From: Balneolaceae bacterium
Lineage (GTDB): Bacteria > Bacteroidota > Rhodothermia > Balneolales > Balneolaceae
Length of the DNA: 64,000 nt
Assembly (NCBI GenBank): GCA_017640665.1
Contig: JAEPQE010000001.1
Location: 1,443,262-1,507,261, forward strand
Reading direction: 5' to 3'
Shown: piece by piece, positions 50,109 to 61,070 of the stretch
How positions within the stretch are numbered: the stretch's first letter is position 1
Layout of the letters: every line of letters starts with the position of its first letter
Position numbers and translations under genes: made by a program
Notes under the pieces: model-generated
Databases searched by the model: none
What the model was told of the DNA's origin: nothing
Seen by the model: the letters and a program-made list of their open reading frames with translations, nothing else

Positions 50109-52766
50109 TCACTCACTCTTTAAACTTTTGACAGGATTCATTAGAGCCGCCTTTATTGATTTGTAACTCATCGTTAACCAAGCTATTCCAAGGGCGATTA
50201 ATCCGGAGATCAGATAAACGAAAAGGTTTACATCAATCTGATAAGCAAAGTTTTGCATCCAGTTTTGCATTAGATACCAGGTAGCCGGCCATGCAATCAG
50301 GTTGGCTATCGCGACAAGGAAAATAAATTTTTTTGAGAGTAAAAAAGCAATCTGAAGAACGGATGCTCCCAACACTTTTCGAATGCCAATCTCTTTTGTA
50401 CGTTGAAGTATGAAGTAACTAATAAGACCATATAATCCAAGGCACGCGATCAGGATGGTTAGAATCGTGAATGCGGTAACCAGTTTGAAAAACCGTTGAT
50501 CAGCCTGATACATCTCATCCAGGTGTTCATCTAGAAAGCGGAAATGGAAAGGAAAGTCGGGGACTGCTTCCTGCCAGGTTTGTTCTAAGGAGGTAAGGAT
50601 AGTGTTGGCATTCCCCGGACGAACCCGTACAAATAAATTTTCCATATTGGTGGGGGGGATATACATTACCAAAGGTTGTATTTCCCGGTGTAATGAAGCA
50701 AAATTGAAATTCCTTGTTACACCAATAATCTGACCTTCTGTGATTTGATCGACCTGGATGTGTTTACCGATTGGATCATCCCAGCCAAATACTGCAGCCG
50801 CAGCCTCATTTAATATAATTCCGCTTGTGGCGTCTGTTGAATAGGATTCATTGAACCCTCGTCCTTTAATAAATTCAATCCCCATGGTTTCAAAATAGCC
50901 GAAGTGGGCACCATAGATATTCATAGGATAGCCTTCTTCATCTTCTGCATCCCGAGAGAAGATGGGGACACTCCCGTTATCACCGTCCAGTAACCCACCG
51001 CCCATTCCGGCGTTAATCACATTAGGGTTCGATTGAATCTGTTGTCTGATCAAATCATAACGACGAGTAAGTTCTCGTCCATCCATGTGGAGAACTACAA
51101 TCTGATCTTGTTCAAAACCTAAGTCTCTTTGTTGGATAAATTGAATTTGCTCTCGAATAATAAAACTGCCGGTTATTAAAAGTATGGCAATAGAAAACTG
51201 AGCAACAACTAATACTGTTCGAATATCAAAGCTGGATTTCTTGCGGAAGAAATCACCCTTAAGCACTTTTGTTGGCTTGAATGAAGACATAACCAAAGCA
51301 GGATATAGGCCTGAAATTATTCCAAGTAATAAACCAATTACCAGAAAAACAGGAACTATAAATCTGAAATCCTCGATATAGATACCGAGTTCCATTCCTA
51401 ATAGTGATGAGACGAACCTTGAAAATGGTATGACAAAGATAATTGCGAGTATAACGCTTAGAAAAGCCATAAGAATTGATTCTCCAAGAAACTGCCGAAC
51501 TAAGCCAGATCTTCGTGCGCCTAGAGTCTTGCGAACCCCTACTTCTTTCCCCCGCCGTATAGATTGAGCGGTACTTAGATTCATGAAATTAAAACATGCA
51601 ATCAGAAGTAAAAAAGCGGCCACAGCCGACATCCCCAAAATATATCCCCGGTTTCCGGTTAACAGGTTCGTGCTGGCATTCTGGAGATCAGAATTGAGAT
51701 AGACTTCTGAAAGTGGTTGAAGATGGAGAATCCGGTTTTCGCCGACATCACTACCCATATTAGTAACTAAAAAGTCTTTAAATTTGGCTTCTAATTCTTC
51801 CGGCTTAGTTCCATCCCGAAGGCGCACATAAGTATAAAATGAGACCCAGCCCCAACTTTCTACTGTAACAGGATACCCGGGAGGAGCGGAGAAAGAGTGA
51901 AAGCTGATTATACAATCAAACTTCAGGTGCGTATTCTGCTGAATAGGAGCGAGAACTCCTGTAACAGTTAATGTTGTAATATTATCAAGGGTTAGCGATT
52001 TACCGATTGGGTTTTCTTCCCCGAAATATTTTTCGGCCATTTCACTTGTAAGAATCACAGAGTTGATTTCATCAAGTGCTGTATTTGCATTACCCTGTTT
52101 CAAAGGGAAATTGAACATTGTGAGAAAAGAAGAGTCGGCATAGGCCACATCATATTCATAAAACTGCATATCCTCATGCTGAATAATATTGCTGTCTACA
52201 AAACGAAACCGCACTACCTCCTCAACTTCCGGATAGGTTTCAAGTAAAGCAGGACCCATGGGTGGAGAAGTAGTTGCAAAATGCCGGGCGCCGGGTCGGT
52301 TAATCTCCTGGAATGTAAGGCGATAGATTTGATCCGGGTTTTCATGAAAGTTATCAAAAGTGAGTTCCTGCCGAACATAAGAGAAAATTACTATACAACA
52401 GATGAGAGCCATAGAAAGCCCAAAAATATTAATAAATGAATTTCCTGAGTCTCGGTAGAGGTTTCGAAAACCAATTTTCATGTAGTTTGGCAACAATGAT
52501 GGAATCCATGCTTTTTGTTGCCACGGTGGTGTTGCGGTATTCTTTATGGACCTTGTTTTGTAGAACTCAGTGCCAACAGAATTAGCCTCGCCGATCTCAT
52601 TCAGAGCCTTTAAAAAAGCTTCTTCTATTGATAGACCTTCTTTTTGGAGATGTTCAATTTCATCAAGCAGGTGAGACTCCAATTCTTCAATATCTCCGTC
52701 TTCATATCCTGGGTTTTTTCGAAGATTCAGTTTCCATTCTTTAATAGCTTTTTCTAAATCAAACAT
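50109..52766 (-). CDS. FtsX-like ABC transporter permease with cytoplasmic prefix (third of three)
   Basis: 885 residues. A ~70-residue helical prefix (MFDLEKAIKEWKLNLRKNPG, YEDGDIEELESHLLDEIEHL) precedes a membrane helix, an extracytoplasmic MacB-PCD domain, FtsX four-helix core 1 (LSTAQSIRRGKEVGVRKTLG), a second MacB-PCD domain, and FtsX core 2 (YFILQRTKEIGIRKVLGAS). Such proteins use ATP hydrolysis by a separate LolD/MacB-type ATPase to move lipoproteins, peptides or drugs, or to signal mechanically. No ATPase gene is adjacent. The prefix is shared almost identically with the two upstream paralogues, while the rest has diverged. It starts 9 bp after the middle permease ends. Confidence 0.88.
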   Translation of the reverse strand: MFDLEKAIKEWKLNLRKNPGYEDGDIEELESHLLDEIEHLQKEGLSIEEAFLKALNEIGEANSVGTEFYKTRSIKNTATPPWQQKAWIPSLLPNYMKIGFRNLYRDSGNSFINIFGLSMALICCIVIFSYVRQELTFDNFHENPDQIYRLTFQEINRPGARHFATTSPPMGPALLETYPEVEEVVRFRFVDSNIIQHEDMQFYEYDVAYADSSFLTMFNFPLKQGNANTALDEINSVILTSEMAEKYFGEENPIGKSLTLDNITTLTVTGVLAPIQQNTHLKFDCIISFHSFSAPPGYPVTVESWGWVSFYTYVRLRDGTKPEELEAKFKDFLVTNMGSDVGENRILHLQPLSEVYLNSDLQNASTNLLTGNRGYILGMSAVAAFLLLIACFNFMNLSTAQSIRRGKEVGVRKTLGARRSGLVRQFLGESILMAFLSVILAIIFVIPFSRFVSSLLGMELGIYIEDFRFIVPVFLVIGLLLGIISGLYPALVMSSFKPTKVLKGDFFRKKSSFDIRTVLVVAQFSIAILLITGSFIIREQIQFIQQRDLGFEQDQIVVLHMDGRELTRRYDLIRQQIQSNPNVINAGMGGGLLDGDNGSVPIFSRDAEDEEGYPMNIYGAHFGYFETMGIEFIKGRGFNESYSTDATSGIILNEAAAAVFGWDDPIGKHIQVDQITEGQIIGVTRNFNFASLHREIQPLVMYIPPTNMENLFVRVRPGNANTILTSLEQTWQEAVPDFPFHFRFLDEHLDEMYQADQRFFKLVTAFTILTILIACLGLYGLISYFILQRTKEIGIRKVLGASVLQIAFLLSKKFIFLVAIANLIAWPATWYLMQNWMQNFAYQIDVNLFVYLISGLIALGIAWLTMSYKSIKAALMNPVKSLKSE

Positions 52767-52775
52767 AATTTACTC

Positions 52776-55421
52776 CTATTCATCCTTCAAACTATCAACT
52801 GGATTAGACCAGGCTACTTTTACGGTTTGATAACTCACTGTTATAATTGCCAACAACATCACCACTATTCCGGCTATGATGTAACTGTTCATTTCGTTAT
52901 TGATTCGATAGGCATAATTTTGCAACCATTCTTCAGCAAGGAAATAAGTAACAGGTGCAGCGATCAAAAAAGAGATTCCGATTATTATGAGTACTTCTTT
53001 GTTGAAGACCAAAAGAAGATCACTCATTGTGGCTCCCAGAATTTTACGGATTCCCATTTCTTTGCTTCGTTTTTCTGCATTAAAAGTAGCCAAGCCAAAT
53101 AGCCCCAGGCAGGCGATAACAATAGCAATGATGGAAAAGGCAAAGAATACTTTTCGTTGACGAGTATCGCTCTCGTAAAGTTGAGCGAATTGCTCATTCA
53201 CGAAACGGTACTCAATTGGATAGAGCGGAGAGAAATTGTTCCAGATCTCAGTAATCTGAGGTAGTAACCCGGAAATATTTTCCGTGCTTATCTTAAGAAC
53301 TATATTTCTATAATCCCGGGTCATTGAAACCACTAAAGGATCTATTTGGTGATGCAGCGAGGCAAAGTGAAAGTCTTCGACTACTCCAATTACTGTTCGG
53401 GGAACTTCATCCCGGTAGGCGTTCCCTATTTGCTTACCTACAGCTTCAGAGATAGTCCACCCAAGAAATTCAACTGCTCTTTCATTGATGATAATGGCTG
53501 AAGCAGAGTCTGTAGAGTAGGCTTTATCAAAGTCGCGTCCCACTACCATTTCCAAATCAAAAACCTCTGAAAAACTATCATCGATGAATAATGTATTCAT
53601 CGTTAAAGGGTTTTCATAGCTTTCTACATTAAATGAATATGTATCAAAAAAACCTCCTGGTGAGCCCGACATAACGCTTGCTTCTTCCACGCCTGGAATT
53701 CCCTTTAGTTGCTCAAGCATTTGAGGGAGATTGTTTCGAGCTGTAGAATTGTTAACTGATATATCCAGTAGTTGATCAGGTTGAAAACCCAACGATTTAT
53801 CGGAGATGTAATCCAGCTGCTTATTAACAATCGAAACTCCAATAATTAGCAAGCTCGATATCGCGAACTGAAAGATAATCAGTCCTTTGCGTGTTACTAG
53901 CTGGGAAGTGCCAAAGCTGATTTTTTCTTTCAACGCCTTTATTGGTTTAAACGAAGAAAGAAAGATAGCGGGGTATACTCCAGCCAAAAACCCGGTAAGT
54001 AGTAAAATCGAGATCGTCATTAGTATGATCTCAGTCGAGAACAGGTTAATTGAAATTGAAGTGCCAATCATCTGTTCAAATGGAGGAAGGAAAAAGTACA
54101 CGAGAATAAAAGAGATAAATCCAGCAAAAAAGGCCATTAGAAAAGCTTCTGACATAAACTGAGCAAACAGAATTAGTCGTTGTGCTCCTAATGTTTTTCT
54201 GACGCCAACCTCCTTGGCACGGCTAACAGAGCGGGCAGTTGCAAGGTTTATGAAATTAACGCCAGCCACCACGATGATCAGGATGGCAATGATTCCGAAA
54301 ATATAGATTACTTTTTTATCACCATGTTCAACCTGCCAATCGAATGCCAGAAAATTGGAGAAGTAGACCTCATCAAGGGGCATCAGGTTTAGGTCAATAC
54401 GACGATTCATTTCGGCCATATTATCGCCGAAGTATTTATCCATAAAAGCGGGTAATTGAGGCTCAATATCGGCAAGCTCTACACCTTCACTTAGCAAAGC
54501 GTATGTATGTACCTGATTCCAGCCCCACTGATTGTAAAAATTGTAATCACTAAAGGTGATAATGCTCACTGCAAGATCAAAATTAACATGACTTTTAGCA
54601 CCTTCAGGGACTTCAAAAACCCCTGTTACTTCAAAACTGTCTTCGCCATCAATTATGATATTTTTCCCAATAGGATTCTCAGTACCAAAGTATTTTTGGG
54701 CAGTTTCTTTTGATAATACTACCGTATAAGGTTCAACCAGTGCTGTTTCCGGATTGCCCGCAATAAACGGATATGTGAATACCTGGAAGAAATTTTTATC
54801 AGCCATATATAAGCGCGACTCCATAAAGTTCTGGTCGTCAATGCTGACTACTCCATCTCCGGGTCCAAGCGTAGCAGCCATTTCAATCATATCTGGAAAT
54901 TCCGCTTCCAATCCGGCTCTAAAGGGGTTTGAAGTAATTCCGACAAGCTCAGTGCCTTCTGGTCTTTCCATCATGCGGTGCACTTTATATATGCGATCAC
55001 CTTTCTCATGAAAGGTGTCGTAGCTCAATTCATTTTGGATAAAAAGGTAGATAAAAAGAGCGCTGGTGATCCCAATCACTAGTCCCAGAATGTTTAAAGA
55101 GGTATAAAGCTTATTTCTGAGTAGGTTTCTTCTGGATATTTTGATGAAGTTGTTGAGTATACCTAGGTTGATACCTGAGGAGTTGTCCAGATATGGTTTT
55201 GTAGTTGAGGTTTTGTAGAACTCAGTAGCTACTTTTTTAACGTCTCCTATTTCTGATGATGCGTTTTGGAAAGCTTCATTTTCTGATGCCCCCGACTCAA
55301 TCAATTCATCTATGCGATCTCTAAGATGAGATTCTAGTTCTTCAATATCACCGTCTTCGTATTCCCGGTTTTTGCGAAGGCTTTGTTTCCAGTTTTTGAT
55401 TTTTTTTTCTAAATCGAACAT
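52776..55421 (-). CDS. FtsX-like ABC transporter permease with cytoplasmic prefix (second of three)
   Basis: 881 residues from the ATG at 55421, which matches the MFDLEK start of the paralogues; a GTG three codons upstream is less likely. Same order as its neighbours: prefix (IKNWKQSLRKNREYEDGDIE), MacB-PCD, FtsX core 1 (LATARSVSRAKEVGVRKTLG), second MacB-PCD, and core 2 (NAEKRSKEMGIRKILGATMS). It lies between its paralogues with a 1-bp gap after the first permease (the ATG follows the TAA closely), so the set is co-transcribed. The extracytoplasmic domains differ from both siblings, so each may handle a different ligand. Confidence 0.88.
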   Translation of the reverse strand: MFDLEKKIKNWKQSLRKNREYEDGDIEELESHLRDRIDELIESGASENEAFQNASSEIGDVKKVATEFYKTSTTKPYLDNSSGINLGILNNFIKISRRNLLRNKLYTSLNILGLVIGITSALFIYLFIQNELSYDTFHEKGDRIYKVHRMMERPEGTELVGITSNPFRAGLEAEFPDMIEMAATLGPGDGVVSIDDQNFMESRLYMADKNFFQVFTYPFIAGNPETALVEPYTVVLSKETAQKYFGTENPIGKNIIIDGEDSFEVTGVFEVPEGAKSHVNFDLAVSIITFSDYNFYNQWGWNQVHTYALLSEGVELADIEPQLPAFMDKYFGDNMAEMNRRIDLNLMPLDEVYFSNFLAFDWQVEHGDKKVIYIFGIIAILIIVVAGVNFINLATARSVSRAKEVGVRKTLGAQRLILFAQFMSEAFLMAFFAGFISFILVYFFLPPFEQMIGTSISINLFSTEIILMTISILLLTGFLAGVYPAIFLSSFKPIKALKEKISFGTSQLVTRKGLIIFQFAISSLLIIGVSIVNKQLDYISDKSLGFQPDQLLDISVNNSTARNNLPQMLEQLKGIPGVEEASVMSGSPGGFFDTYSFNVESYENPLTMNTLFIDDSFSEVFDLEMVVGRDFDKAYSTDSASAIIINERAVEFLGWTISEAVGKQIGNAYRDEVPRTVIGVVEDFHFASLHHQIDPLVVSMTRDYRNIVLKISTENISGLLPQITEIWNNFSPLYPIEYRFVNEQFAQLYESDTRQRKVFFAFSIIAIVIACLGLFGLATFNAEKRSKEMGIRKILGATMSDLLLVFNKEVLIIIGISFLIAAPVTYFLAEEWLQNYAYRINNEMNSYIIAGIVVMLLAIITVSYQTVKVAWSNPVDSLKDE

Positions 55422-55422
55422 G

Positions 55423-58023
55423 TTATTCACTTTTTAAACTTTTAACGGGATTCATTTGAGCTGCACGTATTGCTTTTCCACTTACAGTGGCAAGGGCGAG
55501 GAAAAGCGCAAGTATTCCGGTAGTAGGAAATATCCACCAGTTTATATCTGTTTTGTAGGCGTAATTTTTAAGCCATTCATTCATAAAAAACCAGGCTGTT
55601 GGCGTTGCTATAAGAAACCCGATGCCAACTAATTTCAGAAGGTCAATGCTTACAATACTTACAATTTGAGGGGTAGAAGCTCCCAGTACTTTCCTGATTC
55701 CAATTTCCTTAGTTCGCTTAGCCACAGTAAAAGATGCGAGACCAAATAAACCTAATATGCCAATGAATATGGCCAAACCTGCAAATGAGCCGAAAACTCT
55801 TACAAGTTTATCCTCTGCTTCATATTGGTTTTGTAAGTCATCGGCAAGGAAAGAGTAATCAAGAGGGATGGAAGAAAACTGCTCCCATTTTTCCTGAACA
55901 TTGGTGATTACCTGAGGAAGGTTGGTTTCAGGATTTACTTTGAGAGTAACATATCTTTGTTGTCTGCGTGGACCAAATAATGCGAGGGAGTAAACTTCAG
56001 AATGTAATGATCTATAGTTGAAATCTTTTAGAACTCCTATAATTTGATATTCATTAGAACCTCGTAGTAATTTATGTTGTATTGCTTCTTCAGGAGTCCA
56101 ACCAAAATCCTTGGCCGCAGCTTCGTTTATAACAACCGCAAACGAATCACTCTCAAAGCTTTCTGAGAAAACTCGGCCCGCAAGAACTTCTAGCTCAAGT
56201 GTCTCTATATAATTAAAATTGATGAACGAATAATCCATGTTATGCGCTTCTGAGTTAGGAGAATCAGGTTGCCACATTGAATTAATAAAGAAAGAGCCAG
56301 GCACAGAAAACCCTGAGCTCACGCTTTCAACTCCTGAGATTTGTTTAATCTCATTCATAAAGATATTCAGGTCATTGCCCAAAAAATTAGCTTCTTTTAC
56401 AAGCAAAATATTGTCTGGATTAAACCCCAAACTGGTACTCTTCATATGCTGAATCTGGTTATAAATGATTGCTGTGCCAGCTAGTAGCGCGATAGAAATA
56501 GTAAATTGAAATACAATCAGACCTTTGCGTAAGAAACTATTTTCTTCAGATTTGAACGCACTTTTTAAGACTCTTGAAGGTTGAAAATGACTCAGGATCA
56601 GAGCCGGATAGCCTCCGGATAATAAACCTGTTAATAAAGTAACCAGGATGATTAACACAATGTTTTCTAGGGAAACAAAATCAGAGATTGCTATAGAGGT
56701 TCCTGCAATATTATTAAGAAAGGGAAGCGCGGTATAACTAATTAATAGTGCAAATAAGGCAGCAATTAAAGCAATTAAAGCAGACTCACCTAGAAACTGA
56801 AAGGCAATTTGAGTGCGGCTTCCTCCAATCGTTTTTCGCAAACCTACCTCTCTTGCCCTTTCCATAGATCTGGCTGTGGCAAGATTCATGTAATTAATAG
56901 AGGCCAATATCAGAATGAAGATGGCTAAACCCGTGAACAAATAGAGATATTGAATATTCCCAACAGACTCTATCTCCACAGAAACTCCCTGACCCAGATG
57001 TATATCACTTATGGGTTGAAGGTGGGGAATGAATAAATCTCCCTCCAGTCCAGTGTTAGACCCTATTTGACTGGCAATCAAATTTTTAAGCTCTTCTGTT
57101 ATACTATCAATTTGCTGATCAGGATGTAGCAATAAGTAAGTCTGATAATTATTTTGACCCCAACTTGTTCTGGAAATATTTAAAGACGCAATAAAATCAA
57201 AGTATATATGTGAATTAGAGCGAGGGGTAGCAAGCACACCTGTGACTTCCATTTCTGTATTTCCTATCGAAAGAGTTTTTCCGATGGGATCTTCATCTCC
57301 AAAATATTTTGAAGCTGAGTTTTCAGTTATCAAAATAGTATTTGGTTGGTCTAAGTTTGGTGTTCCTTTGAGAACTTCAAAAGAGAAAATGTCAAAAAAT
57401 CCTTCTTCAGCAAGCAGAAAATCAGGTTCTACAAATTCATGTACACCAAAAGCAACCACAGGGCTTATAACTTGTACACGCACAGCTTTTTGAACCCCGG
57501 GAAGGTTTTCAGATGCCGCTACAGCCAATGAAGAAGGGGTGTAGGAAATAGTTCCTTTTAAATCAGGTAAATCAAATTCGCGAAGTACCCGATAGCTTCG
57601 GTCCGAATTTTCATGGAACTTATCATAAGAGCTTTCATATTGCACATACATTGCAATTAATAAACAAGCCGCTAATCCAACAGAGAGTCCAAGAACATTG
57701 ATAATGGAGTAGCTTTTTTTCAGGGTAAAGTTACGCCAGGCTATTTTAACGTAATTGGGCAGGAGAGCCATGACACCGGAAGATTGTTCCCAATGGATTT
57801 TTTTTGCTCGTGTTTTGTGGAGTTCAGAAGCAACGGAATCGATATTGCCAATCTCTTCTGAAGCTGTTTCAAAGGCATTTTTTTCGGATATTTCTGCATT
57901 TATTAAGTCATCCATTCGATCCCTTAAATGAGATTCCAGCTCTTCGATATCTCCGTCTTCATACCCTCTGTTTTTGCGAAGACTTCGTTTCCATTCTTTA
58001 ATTGCTTTTTCTAAATCGAACAT
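55423..58023 (-). CDS. FtsX-like ABC transporter permease with cytoplasmic prefix (first of three)
   Basis: 866 residues: prefix MFDLEKAIKEWKRSLRKNRG then YEDGDIEELESHLRDRMDDL, MacB-PCD domain, FtsX core 1 (LATARSMERAREVGLRKTIG), second MacB-PCD, and FtsX core 2 (TVAKRTKEIGIRKVLGASTP). It begins 11 bp downstream of the PadR gene, the first structural gene of the operon. By family knowledge, prefix domains of the DUF1700/HAAS type accompany PadR regulators, so the prefix may contact or sequester the regulator. That role is inferred, not shown here. Confidence 0.88.
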   Translation of the reverse strand: MFDLEKAIKEWKRSLRKNRGYEDGDIEELESHLRDRMDDLINAEISEKNAFETASEEIGNIDSVASELHKTRAKKIHWEQSSGVMALLPNYVKIAWRNFTLKKSYSIINVLGLSVGLAACLLIAMYVQYESSYDKFHENSDRSYRVLREFDLPDLKGTISYTPSSLAVAASENLPGVQKAVRVQVISPVVAFGVHEFVEPDFLLAEEGFFDIFSFEVLKGTPNLDQPNTILITENSASKYFGDEDPIGKTLSIGNTEMEVTGVLATPRSNSHIYFDFIASLNISRTSWGQNNYQTYLLLHPDQQIDSITEELKNLIASQIGSNTGLEGDLFIPHLQPISDIHLGQGVSVEIESVGNIQYLYLFTGLAIFILILASINYMNLATARSMERAREVGLRKTIGGSRTQIAFQFLGESALIALIAALFALLISYTALPFLNNIAGTSIAISDFVSLENIVLIILVTLLTGLLSGGYPALILSHFQPSRVLKSAFKSEENSFLRKGLIVFQFTISIALLAGTAIIYNQIQHMKSTSLGFNPDNILLVKEANFLGNDLNIFMNEIKQISGVESVSSGFSVPGSFFINSMWQPDSPNSEAHNMDYSFINFNYIETLELEVLAGRVFSESFESDSFAVVINEAAAKDFGWTPEEAIQHKLLRGSNEYQIIGVLKDFNYRSLHSEVYSLALFGPRRQQRYVTLKVNPETNLPQVITNVQEKWEQFSSIPLDYSFLADDLQNQYEAEDKLVRVFGSFAGLAIFIGILGLFGLASFTVAKRTKEIGIRKVLGASTPQIVSIVSIDLLKLVGIGFLIATPTAWFFMNEWLKNYAYKTDINWWIFPTTGILALFLALATVSGKAIRAAQMNPVKSLKSE

Positions 58024-58034
58024 AATACTTACCT

Positions 58035-58379
58035 CTAGTCAGTAGCCCATTGCGGAGTTGGACCCCATATTTTAGCGAATACTTCATGGATGCTTAACCA
58101 CTGCTCCTTCGCTGTTTGAAGTTCTTCTAAACCAATTTCCGTAATGGAATAATATTTCCTTCTTCTCCCTTCATTAGAAACCACCCATTTAGATTGTATG
58201 CATCCATCTTTCTGGAGCTTGTGCAGGACCGGGTAGAGCATTCCGTCCGACCACTCGAGCGTGCCGCCGGAAAGGTGTTTCACATCCTGAATGATTTGAT
58301 AGCCGTAGCTTTCGCCTCGTTTAAGGATTGTTAAAATAAGTGGGCGTGTTGACGCCGCCATAAGTTCTTTTGATAGCAT
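58035..58379 (-). CDS. PadR family transcriptional regulator
   Basis: 114 residues with a winged-helix DNA-binding fold of the short (PadR-s1/LmrR-like) class: MLSKELMAASTRPLILTILK, GESYGYQIIQDVKHLSGGTL, EWSDGMLYPVLHKLQKDGCI, EGRRRKYYSITEIGLEELQT. The C-terminal helix (AKEQWLSIHEVFAKIWG) forms the dimer arm. It heads the permease operon, with its stop 11 bp before the first permease. Its own promoter region carries a palindrome overlapping the -10 box, so autorepression is likely. Whether it senses a small molecule or a membrane signal passed by the permease prefixes is unknown. Confidence 0.93.
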   Translation of the reverse strand: MLSKELMAASTRPLILTILKRGESYGYQIIQDVKHLSGGTLEWSDGMLYPVLHKLQKDGCIQSKWVVSNEGRRRKYYSITEIGLEELQTAKEQWLSIHEVFAKIWGPTPQWATD

Positions 58380-58395
58380 AATGTATACCTTGAGG

Positions 58396-58435
58396 TTCTA
58401 TGCATGAGAATACATAGAAGTTCAATGTAAGTCAA
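58396..58435 (-). promoter_or_regulatory. Likely padR promoter with overlapping palindromic operator
   Basis: On the minus strand, TTGACT (58430-58435), a 17-bp spacer and TATTCT (58407-58412) form a sigma70-like promoter ~28 bp upstream of the PadR start. The palindrome TTCTATG-N10-CATAGAA (58396-58402 and 58413-58419) lies across the -10 box. It contains ATGC-N8-ACAT, one mismatch from the ATGT-N8-ACAT operator of PadR-type proteins. Occupancy would block polymerase, giving autoregulation of the whole permease operon. Confidence 0.6.
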
Positions 58436-60076: not shown

Positions 60077-60157
60077 ACAGGCTTCTCAAGAGAGGACTTT
60101 TTGAGGCATTAATAAAATTCTTTTGTAAGGAATAGAGTTTTGTTTGGTCTAACAGGT

Positions 60158-60535
60158 ATGGCTAGAAATGAAATCATACCGTATAACCCCAGACTTAGAA
60201 AGTTTGCAAAGGAACTCAGGCAGAATTCTACATTAGGTGAAATTCTACTTTGGAAAGAAATCAGCAGAAGAAAGTTAGAAGTTCAGTTTCATCGGCAGGT
60301 TCCAGTTCATGAGTATATCATCGATTTCTATTGTCATGAATTGAAGCTAGCCATCGAGGTAGATGGGGGTTCGCATGATAACCCAATCCAAAAAGAGAAA
60401 GATTTGATTCAGGATTATAACCTTGAGCAGCTTGGAATTACTGTCATCAGAATCAGCGATTGGGATGTAAAGAGGAATATGAGCTCGGTGGTTAGTTTCA
60501 TTGAACGCAGAGTTAAAACAAAGTTAGAATCATAA
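60158..60535 (+). CDS. DUF559 endonuclease-like protein (intact copy)
   Basis: 125 residues from the ATG at 60158 (MARNEIIPYNPRLRKFAKEL). A TTG at 60140 is less likely. DUF559 pattern: NSTLGEILLWKEISRRKL, VQFHRQVPVHEYIIDFYCHE, LKLAIEVDGGSHDNPIQKEK, LEQLGITVIRISDWDVKRN. The PD-(D/E)XK-like core has Asp in IIDFY and Glu/Asp in AIEVDGGSH, as in Vsr-related nucleases. These genes are recurrent with intergenic repeats in Bacteroidota. Function in vivo is not established. The preceding leader carries the repeat noted at 59952. Confidence 0.85.
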   Translation: MARNEIIPYNPRLRKFAKELRQNSTLGEILLWKEISRRKLEVQFHRQVPVHEYIIDFYCHELKLAIEVDGGSHDNPIQKEKDLIQDYNLEQLGITVIRISDWDVKRNMSSVVSFIERRVKTKLES

Positions 60536-60701: not shown

Positions 60702-61070
60702 ATGTCAGAGACAAAACACATATTAAAGAGTACAGAAAAGAAGAGGAATTCCATGTTAGGAGAGATATTACTTTGGAAAGCATTGAGTGGAGGGAAGCTG
60801 GGAACAAACTTTCAGCGAAAAGTTTCTATTCAGGATTTTATAATCGGTTTTTATAGCGAAGAGCTTAAAATGGCAATAGAAGTCGATAAAAACTCAGAGT
60901 ATGATCCCGTTCAAAAAGAAATAGATCAGCTTCGGGATAATCGATTACATGAGTTAGGAATAACTGTACTTAGGATTGAAGATCAGGAAATAAAACGAAG
61001 TCTTAATTCAGTACTTCGTTTTCTGGAACACAAAATTCAGTATGTCCAGCAAGGGAATAAAGTAGCTTAG
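60702..61070 (+). CDS. DUF559-like protein, probably inactive copy
   Basis: 122 residues, related to the copy at 60158: SMLGEILLWKALSGGKL, TNFQRKVSIQDFIIGFYSEE, LKMAIEVDKNSEYDPVQKEI, LHELGITVLRIEDQEIKRSL. The core Asp of IIDFY is Gly here (IIGFY), and AIEVDGGSH has become AIEVDKNSE, so the predicted nuclease site is lost. The frame is open and the start sits in the same relative place after the leader repeat. It may be a decaying paralogue or have a regulatory use. It overlaps the convergent ABC-F stop by 4 bp. Confidence 0.75.
   Translation: MSETKHILKSTEKKRNSMLGEILLWKALSGGKLGTNFQRKVSIQDFIIGFYSEELKMAIEVDKNSEYDPVQKEIDQLRDNRLHELGITVLRIEDQEIKRSLNSVLRFLEHKIQYVQQGNKVA

Follow-up and report, generated by a model that had tools for sequence, protein, structure and literature searches.

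A PadR-headed operon of three duplicated permeases whose homogenised N-terminal prefix resembles a HAAS domain

The operon and its products

The window analysed here, a stretch of 64,000 nucleotides, carries on its minus strand an operon with the order padR, permease 1, permease 2, permease 3, whose genes lie almost end to end, with one overlap. Its features are as follows.

58035..58379, minus strand: padR, 114 aa, PadR-family repressor, heading the transcription order
55423..58023, minus strand: permease 1, 866 aa, duplicated FtsX/MacB_PCD (type VII) permease (PF12704 and PF02687, each twice)
52776..55430, minus strand: permease 2, 884 aa, architecture as permease 1; GTG start, the Met of MFDLEK being codon 4
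50109..52766, minus strand: permease 3, 885 aa, architecture as permease 1 by profile matches
57808..58023, minus strand: HAAS-like prefix of permease 1, residues 1-72 (NF038403, 39.8 bits, and model)
55206..55421, minus strand: HAAS-like prefix of permease 2, beginning at the internal ATG, codon 4 (NF038403, 44.3 bits)
52551..52766, minus strand: HAAS-like prefix of permease 3 (NF038403, 40.1 bits)

The padR product belongs to the PadR family (86.9 bits against Pfam PF03551, cut-off 27) and reaches 88 bits against TIGR03433 padR_acidobact, under the curated cut-off of 101.8; its orthologues in two relatives, G033 and G002, are 92% and 82% identical to it. The permeases are of the ABC type VII kind by their FtsX and MacB_PCD domains and their fold. 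Against TIGR03434 (ADOP) they score 283.9-328.7 bits and do not reach the curated cut-off of 622.3, and we regard them from their sequences as relatives of this family, not members. Permease 1 was modelled with AlphaFold (mean pLDDT 87.7). The best structural match of this model is YbbAP of E. coli (9ge6_A; Z 25.2 with an rmsd of 8.1 over 660 residues), followed by BceB (Z 20.6, rmsd 8.1 over 479) and then MacB.

A preliminary description of this DNA had pointed to a prefix shared by the three permeases beside the PadR gene, which the coordinates and the identity computation confirm: residues 1-72 are 64, 62 and 68% identical in the three permease pairs, as compared to 34, 36 and 35% for the rest (~780 residues). 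For pairs drawn from different operons at a body identity of 30-42%, prefix identity averages 37.6%, with a 95th percentile of 49.3% (n=1550 pairs), so that the likeness of the three prefixes is well beyond background.

Identity of the prefix domain

All three prefixes exceed the cut-off of 30 bits of the perm_prefix_1 model (NF038403). In a Pfam search with 89 prefixes, PF22564 (HAAS) was the commonest family, with 15 members at E<=1 (best E 4e-4) and the next family at 7; the operon's own three prefixes gave no match to HAAS in this search. By hhalign, the prefix profile aligned with 17 HAAS domains from genomes of the same phylum over 66 columns that include all three helices (E 8.7e-5, Prob 60), whereas seven permease body segments run as controls gave E 0.15 or worse. 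The model of the isolated prefix of permease 1 consists of three helices (H4-16, H23-42 and H47-75), and in the full-length model the third is broken at residues 59-60 (H47-58 and H61-101). The prefix model thus displays the three consecutive helices, the third one kinked, that are characteristic of HAAS, and the passages on HAAS in Ravi et al. 2024 (PMC11237479) describe a kink where helix 3 of the prefix breaks. At the kink position, the prefix consensus conserves a G, and the proline of the GxP motif is mostly absent by eye. The matches listed in a structure search with the prefix model (Foldseek, VIA) were helical look-alikes, the HAAS structure (DUF1048, 2O3L) not being among them, and the prefix profile found no credible match among PDB sequences (best E 0.03). 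Residues 70-90, which join the prefix to TM1, are modelled with low confidence. On these profile and model comparisons, we identify the prefix as a predicted divergent HAAS domain.

The same genome harbors six more PadR-permease operons (L103-L108) with another prefix, which is of the perm_prefix_2 type and has a GDLEE-Y motif. This is a second PadR-linked prefix without detectable HAAS similarity; its assignment as a HAAS domain was rejected for want of profile support (E 0.026, Prob 2). Paired permeases of this type display no special homogenisation, their identity being 62-80% both within and between operons.

Association of the prefix with PadR

When the permeases of this genome were collected by a MacB_PCD search, which is blind to PadR, a PadR gene accompanied 12 of 12 prefix-bearing permeases versus none of 17 prefix-less duplicated ones (Fisher p 1.9e-8). 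The 12 prefixes comprise six of perm_prefix_1 and six of the perm_prefix_2 type (three of the latter above that model's cut-off, two just below it and one weak), and their permeases are distributed over nine operons; the nine PadR genes above the Pfam cut-off stand at the heads of these operons, one each. A wider survey, in which loci were chosen by the prefix alone across the class and phylum, yielded 90 prefix proteins. A PadR gene lies beside 86 of them, upstream in 83 cases (70 operons) and just downstream in 3; one of the remaining four is at a contig edge, and three are without PadR. In about 15 of the 90, the prefix sits on something other than a permease (another multi-TM protein, a one-TM protein or a pentapeptide-repeat-like one), and again PadR is adjacent. 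Since PadR is found beside the prefix on permeases and unrelated membrane proteins alike, the domain goes with PadR and not with the permease. Canonical HAAS loci have an adjacent PadR in 17 of 17 cases, and the operon in the window displays the same dyad of a standalone PadR gene next to the domain. A scan of genome contigs yielded five loci, mostly distant relatives.

This distribution bears on the suggestion that the prefix serves as a module for assembly or ATPase regulation and that PadR only ties permease dosage to an unrelated cytoplasmic signal. The low-confidence region that links the prefix to TM1 would be compatible with such a module, as would the retention of coupling helices (see below), and PadR proteins can bind small ligands. 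However, the prefix also occurs beside PadR on one-TM or pentapeptide-like-repeat proteins that are not ABC permeases, and we therefore hold this explanation to be improbable.

Some loci of the survey deserve separate mention. Three prefix_1 permeases (L133:7413-10091, L172:5018-7744 and L198:2816-5509) have no PadR in the ~1.5 kb upstream and could be either orphan receptors or permeases served by a PadR from another locus. At L178:4657-5730 and L200:4125-5168, prefix_1 is carried by single-TM proteins beside PadR; the extracytoplasmic part of these proteins resembles by eye carboxypeptidase-regulatory-type repeats. The PadR operons contrast naturally with a locus of the same genome (L109-L111, C1:14-51 kb), where 14 duplicated permeases of about 790-820 aa, all without a prefix, form a tandem array that has no PadR and is bordered on either side by genes for DarD/LolD-like ATPases.

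Homogenisation of the prefixes within operons

The prefix had been described as almost unchanged among the three permeases, and this had been ascribed to a constraint that preserves the segment. At the DNA level, identity is 74-81% for residues 1-36 and only 56-59% for residues 37-72, such that the first part of this statement holds for the first ~36 residues but not for the second half. The proposed constraint is contradicted by the comparison of orthologues: of 18 orthologue-like pairs, 15 have a prefix that is more diverged than the body, and for the window permeases and those of G033 the values are 85, 87 and 67% in the body and 81, 61 and 64% in the prefix.

Homogenisation is not peculiar to this operon. 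In eight of nine multi-permease operons, the prefixes are 58-93% identical at a body identity of 33-55%, as compared to about 40% in matched pairs from other operons. The exception is L102 of the same genome, whose prefixes are 32% alike under one PadR. Of its two prefix_1 permeases (L102:10884-16647), the second is similar to L123, a locus with a PadR of its own, and L102 is possibly a recent merger of two operons.

Several observations indicate how the likeness arose. Where two permeases have the same amino acid, their codons also agree in 79% of cases for residues 1-36, 65% for residues 37-72, 48% for residues 73-108 and 42% in the far body, and mean nucleotide identity drops at residues 73-84. 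Permeases 1 and 2 of G033 have a prefix stretch in common that is absent from both of their orthologues. Tree tests reject the topology of the body for the prefix sequences (AU p 0.006) and, conversely, the prefix topologies for the body. These patterns point to gene conversion, or an equivalent exchange, that is confined to the domain and ends near its boundary, and it is to this, not to unusual constraint, that the prefixes of one operon would owe their likeness. The preliminary description had allowed for conversion over a wider stretch as the source of the likeness; conversion is indeed seen at the DNA level, but its tract is not wider than the prefix.

Divergence of the prefix and of PadR between operons

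A whole-protein mirror-tree comparison with PadR gave 0.64 for the prefix and 0.70 for the body and hence did not single out the prefix, for which reason tests at fixed body divergence were used instead. Among pairs at a body identity of 28-42%, mean prefix identity rises from 34%, where the PadR proteins are 35-45% identical, through 38, 43, 46 and 62% to 75% under the same PadR, while body segments are nearly flat across the same classes. With body identity removed, the rank correlation between prefix and PadR identity is 0.34 (permutation p 0.002, for pairs that are not independent); ten body-segment controls have a residual rho of -0.15 to 0.16, the highest (residues 592-663) with p 0.012. 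For pairs including non-first genes, the residual correlation is 0.39. As an example, permease 2 of L196 has a body 56% like that of permease 2 in the window, yet its prefix is 32% and its PadR 42% identical. In these sequence comparisons, the prefix thus tracks PadR at constant body divergence. The coevolution is not tight, because PadR changes at a slower pace than the prefix (92% versus 61-81% identity between the window operon and G033). The correlation may in part reflect genomic linkage of neighboring genes; since PadR adjoins the first prefix, linkage contributes to it.

The main rival to selection for a common partner is neutral concerted evolution, in which the prefixes would be the sole recombinable stretch and PadR a plain repressor of a transporter operon. 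That homogenisation reaches synonymous sites too, that the bodies, mostly at 45-55% nucleotide identity, are hardly able to convert and that the prefixes diverge between orthologues all agree with it. It leaves unexplained, however, why the prefix is found with PadR in unrelated membrane proteins, why PadR is absent beside prefix-less permeases and why, between operons, prefix identity follows that of PadR even when non-first genes are counted, and we consider it unlikely. The proposal that PadR is the common intracellular partner of the permeases gains support from the co-occurrence of the two, the HAAS relatedness of the prefix and its tracking of PadR, though the earlier interpretation as a whole is only partly supported.

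Predicted operators upstream of padR

Two 19-bp palindromes that are conserved in G002 and G033 lie upstream of padR and are predicted to be its operators.

58411..58429, minus strand: predicted PadR operator 1, TACATTGAACTTCTATGTA, 8/9 paired positions, from conservation and position
58386..58404, minus strand: predicted PadR operator 2, TGCATAGAACCTCAAGGTA, its start 25 bp downstream of that of operator 1

Predicted operator 1, which is identical in G002 and has one base changed in G033, fills the spacer between a -35 element TTGACT (58430-58435) and a -10 element TATTCT (58407-58412). A sigma-70 promoter scan found hexamer matches no more often than by chance, so that it is by position and conservation only that the promoter is assigned. 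Comparable tandem palindromes precede many other padR genes in related operons. Within three mismatches, operator 1 occurs in one place only in the 3.8-Mb genome, and the exact matches of a degenerate consensus are operators 1 and 2 only; its one-mismatch sites are no commoner than those of a reversed control. The palindrome pair covers the padR promoter and has no further occurrence in the genome, so that autoregulation is the likely output and the regulon is likely this operon itself, much as with LltR of Listeria (PMC6624303).

Coupling to an ATPase

There is no ABC ATPase gene in the operon, as had been noted before, the nearest being an ABC-F-like gene of the window about 3 kb away; the operon thus lacks the cognate ATPase of a type VII ABC transporter. 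The permease 1 model has a short cytoplasmic helix in each repeat.

56827..56856, minus strand: short cytoplasmic helix, residues 390-399, permease 1, repeat 1 (model; motif REVGxRKxxGAxR)
55687..55713, minus strand: same helix in repeat 2 of permease 1, residues 771-779 (model; motif RTKEIGIRKVLGAS)

In the model, these helices appear to sit where coupling helices meet the ATPase in MacB and LolCDE. Conservation of the two coupling loops is 0.61 and 0.58 in the prefix permeases versus a body mean of 0.46, and 0.66 and 0.62 versus 0.49 in prefix-less ATPase-linked permeases. A genome search for a LolD/MacB partner found seven DarD/LolD/MacB-like ATPases, all outside the operon. Among the surveyed relatives, no ATPase gene is co-conserved with the block, and it is absent beside most; one relative (G033, L120:11487-19712) has a LolD-like gene and two prefix-less permeases directly upstream of its PadR-permease block.

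From the missing ATPase gene, the preliminary description had raised the possibility of a purely signalling function. The absence of an ATPase gene from the operon and from the neighborhood of most relatives would fit receptors that neither transport nor use an ATPase. However, in both coupling loops the motif is better conserved than the body on average, just as in the prefix-less ATPase-linked permeases, and because these helices are kept and seven ATPases are available elsewhere in the genome, a purely signalling role is not favored and appears very improbable. An ATPase shared in trans would be the simplest reading.

A model for the operon

The best explanation of the operon as a whole, to which we assign a probability of roughly 60%, is that it constitutes a HAAS-PadR signalling unit whose single repressor takes its input from three permeases that differ in their outer domains. 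PadR would bind the two tandem palindromes over its own promoter, such that the operon is repressed. The cytoplasmic N-terminal three-helix domain of each permease would bind PadR, as has been predicted for HAAS. Upon meeting its substrate or membrane stress outside, a permease would cycle, probably with a LolD/MacB-type ATPase in trans, as the retained coupling helices suggest; the HAAS domain would then capture or alter PadR, and the operon would be expressed. Gene conversion among the 5′ ends of the permease genes keeps the prefixes matched while the bodies diverge, and the selective reason for this may be that one PadR must read all three permeases. We put forward more tentatively, at somewhat less than even odds, that many sensors thus feed one repressor and that conversion confined to the docking domain keeps the receptors, unlike as their outer domains are, readable by a single PadR, which would amount to concerted evolution of an interface for signalling within one operon.

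Relation to known systems

The HAAS-PadR dyad has been predicted from gene neighborhoods as an alternative to two-component systems, and the HAAS fusions listed include FtsX-like TM plus MacB/PCD proteins, e.g., ACO32024.1 (Ravi et al. 2024, PMC11237479). The central idea of the preliminary description had therefore already been predicted, and the operon is a member of this kind of system. Like the dyad, it combines a PadR gene with an adjacent gene for a membrane protein whose cytoplasmic N-terminus forms a three-helix domain. It differs in that most of the prefixes are too divergent for the Pfam HAAS model and are usually without the GxP proline, and in that, unlike in the dyad as described in the pertinent passages (PMC11237479), several permeases stand under one PadR with homogenised prefixes.

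The operon further resembles the ADOP (TIGR03434)/TIGR03433/NF038403 arrangement in its duplicated orphan permeases, the prefix above cut-off, the PadR neighbor and the lack of an adjacent ATPase, but the scores of permeases (284-329 versus 622) and PadR (88 versus 101.8) are lower, and the genome is of the Balneolaceae type, not Acidobacteria. It also has parallels in LltR/LadR/LstR of Listeria, PadR-type repressors whose operon likewise encodes a membrane protein, there of the DUF1700 (HAAS-type) kind, though the membrane module differs; in the lltR mutant, the own operon is up >100-fold, which is the strongest response, and the sections on these systems report no contact between a prefix and PadR (Hauf et al. 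2019, PMC6624303). The permeases have the type VII body fold and coupling loops of YbbAP, BceAB, MacB and LolCDE, but the operon has no cognate ATPase gene and has PadR instead of a histidine kinase. In BceAB, transport is tied to gene regulation.

A non-exhaustive literature search returned no paper on operon-wide homogenisation of a docking domain; while the kind of system is known, the prefix-copying pattern looks new. PadR-linked orphan duplicated permeases are present in several phyla. The homogenised prefixes, the way they follow PadR when body divergence is fixed and the single operator pair lend independent support to the HAAS-PadR dyad and make it testable through exact pieces, i.e., 72 residues and two 19-bp sites. 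If the proposed docking holds true, an operon would gain new receptors for one transcription factor merely by copying the docking domain.

Elsewhere in the window, two adjoining ORFs (60140-60535 and 60702-61070; 131 and 122 aa) resemble diverged copies of one small protein, with motifs in common such as LGEILLWK and ELKxAIEVD.
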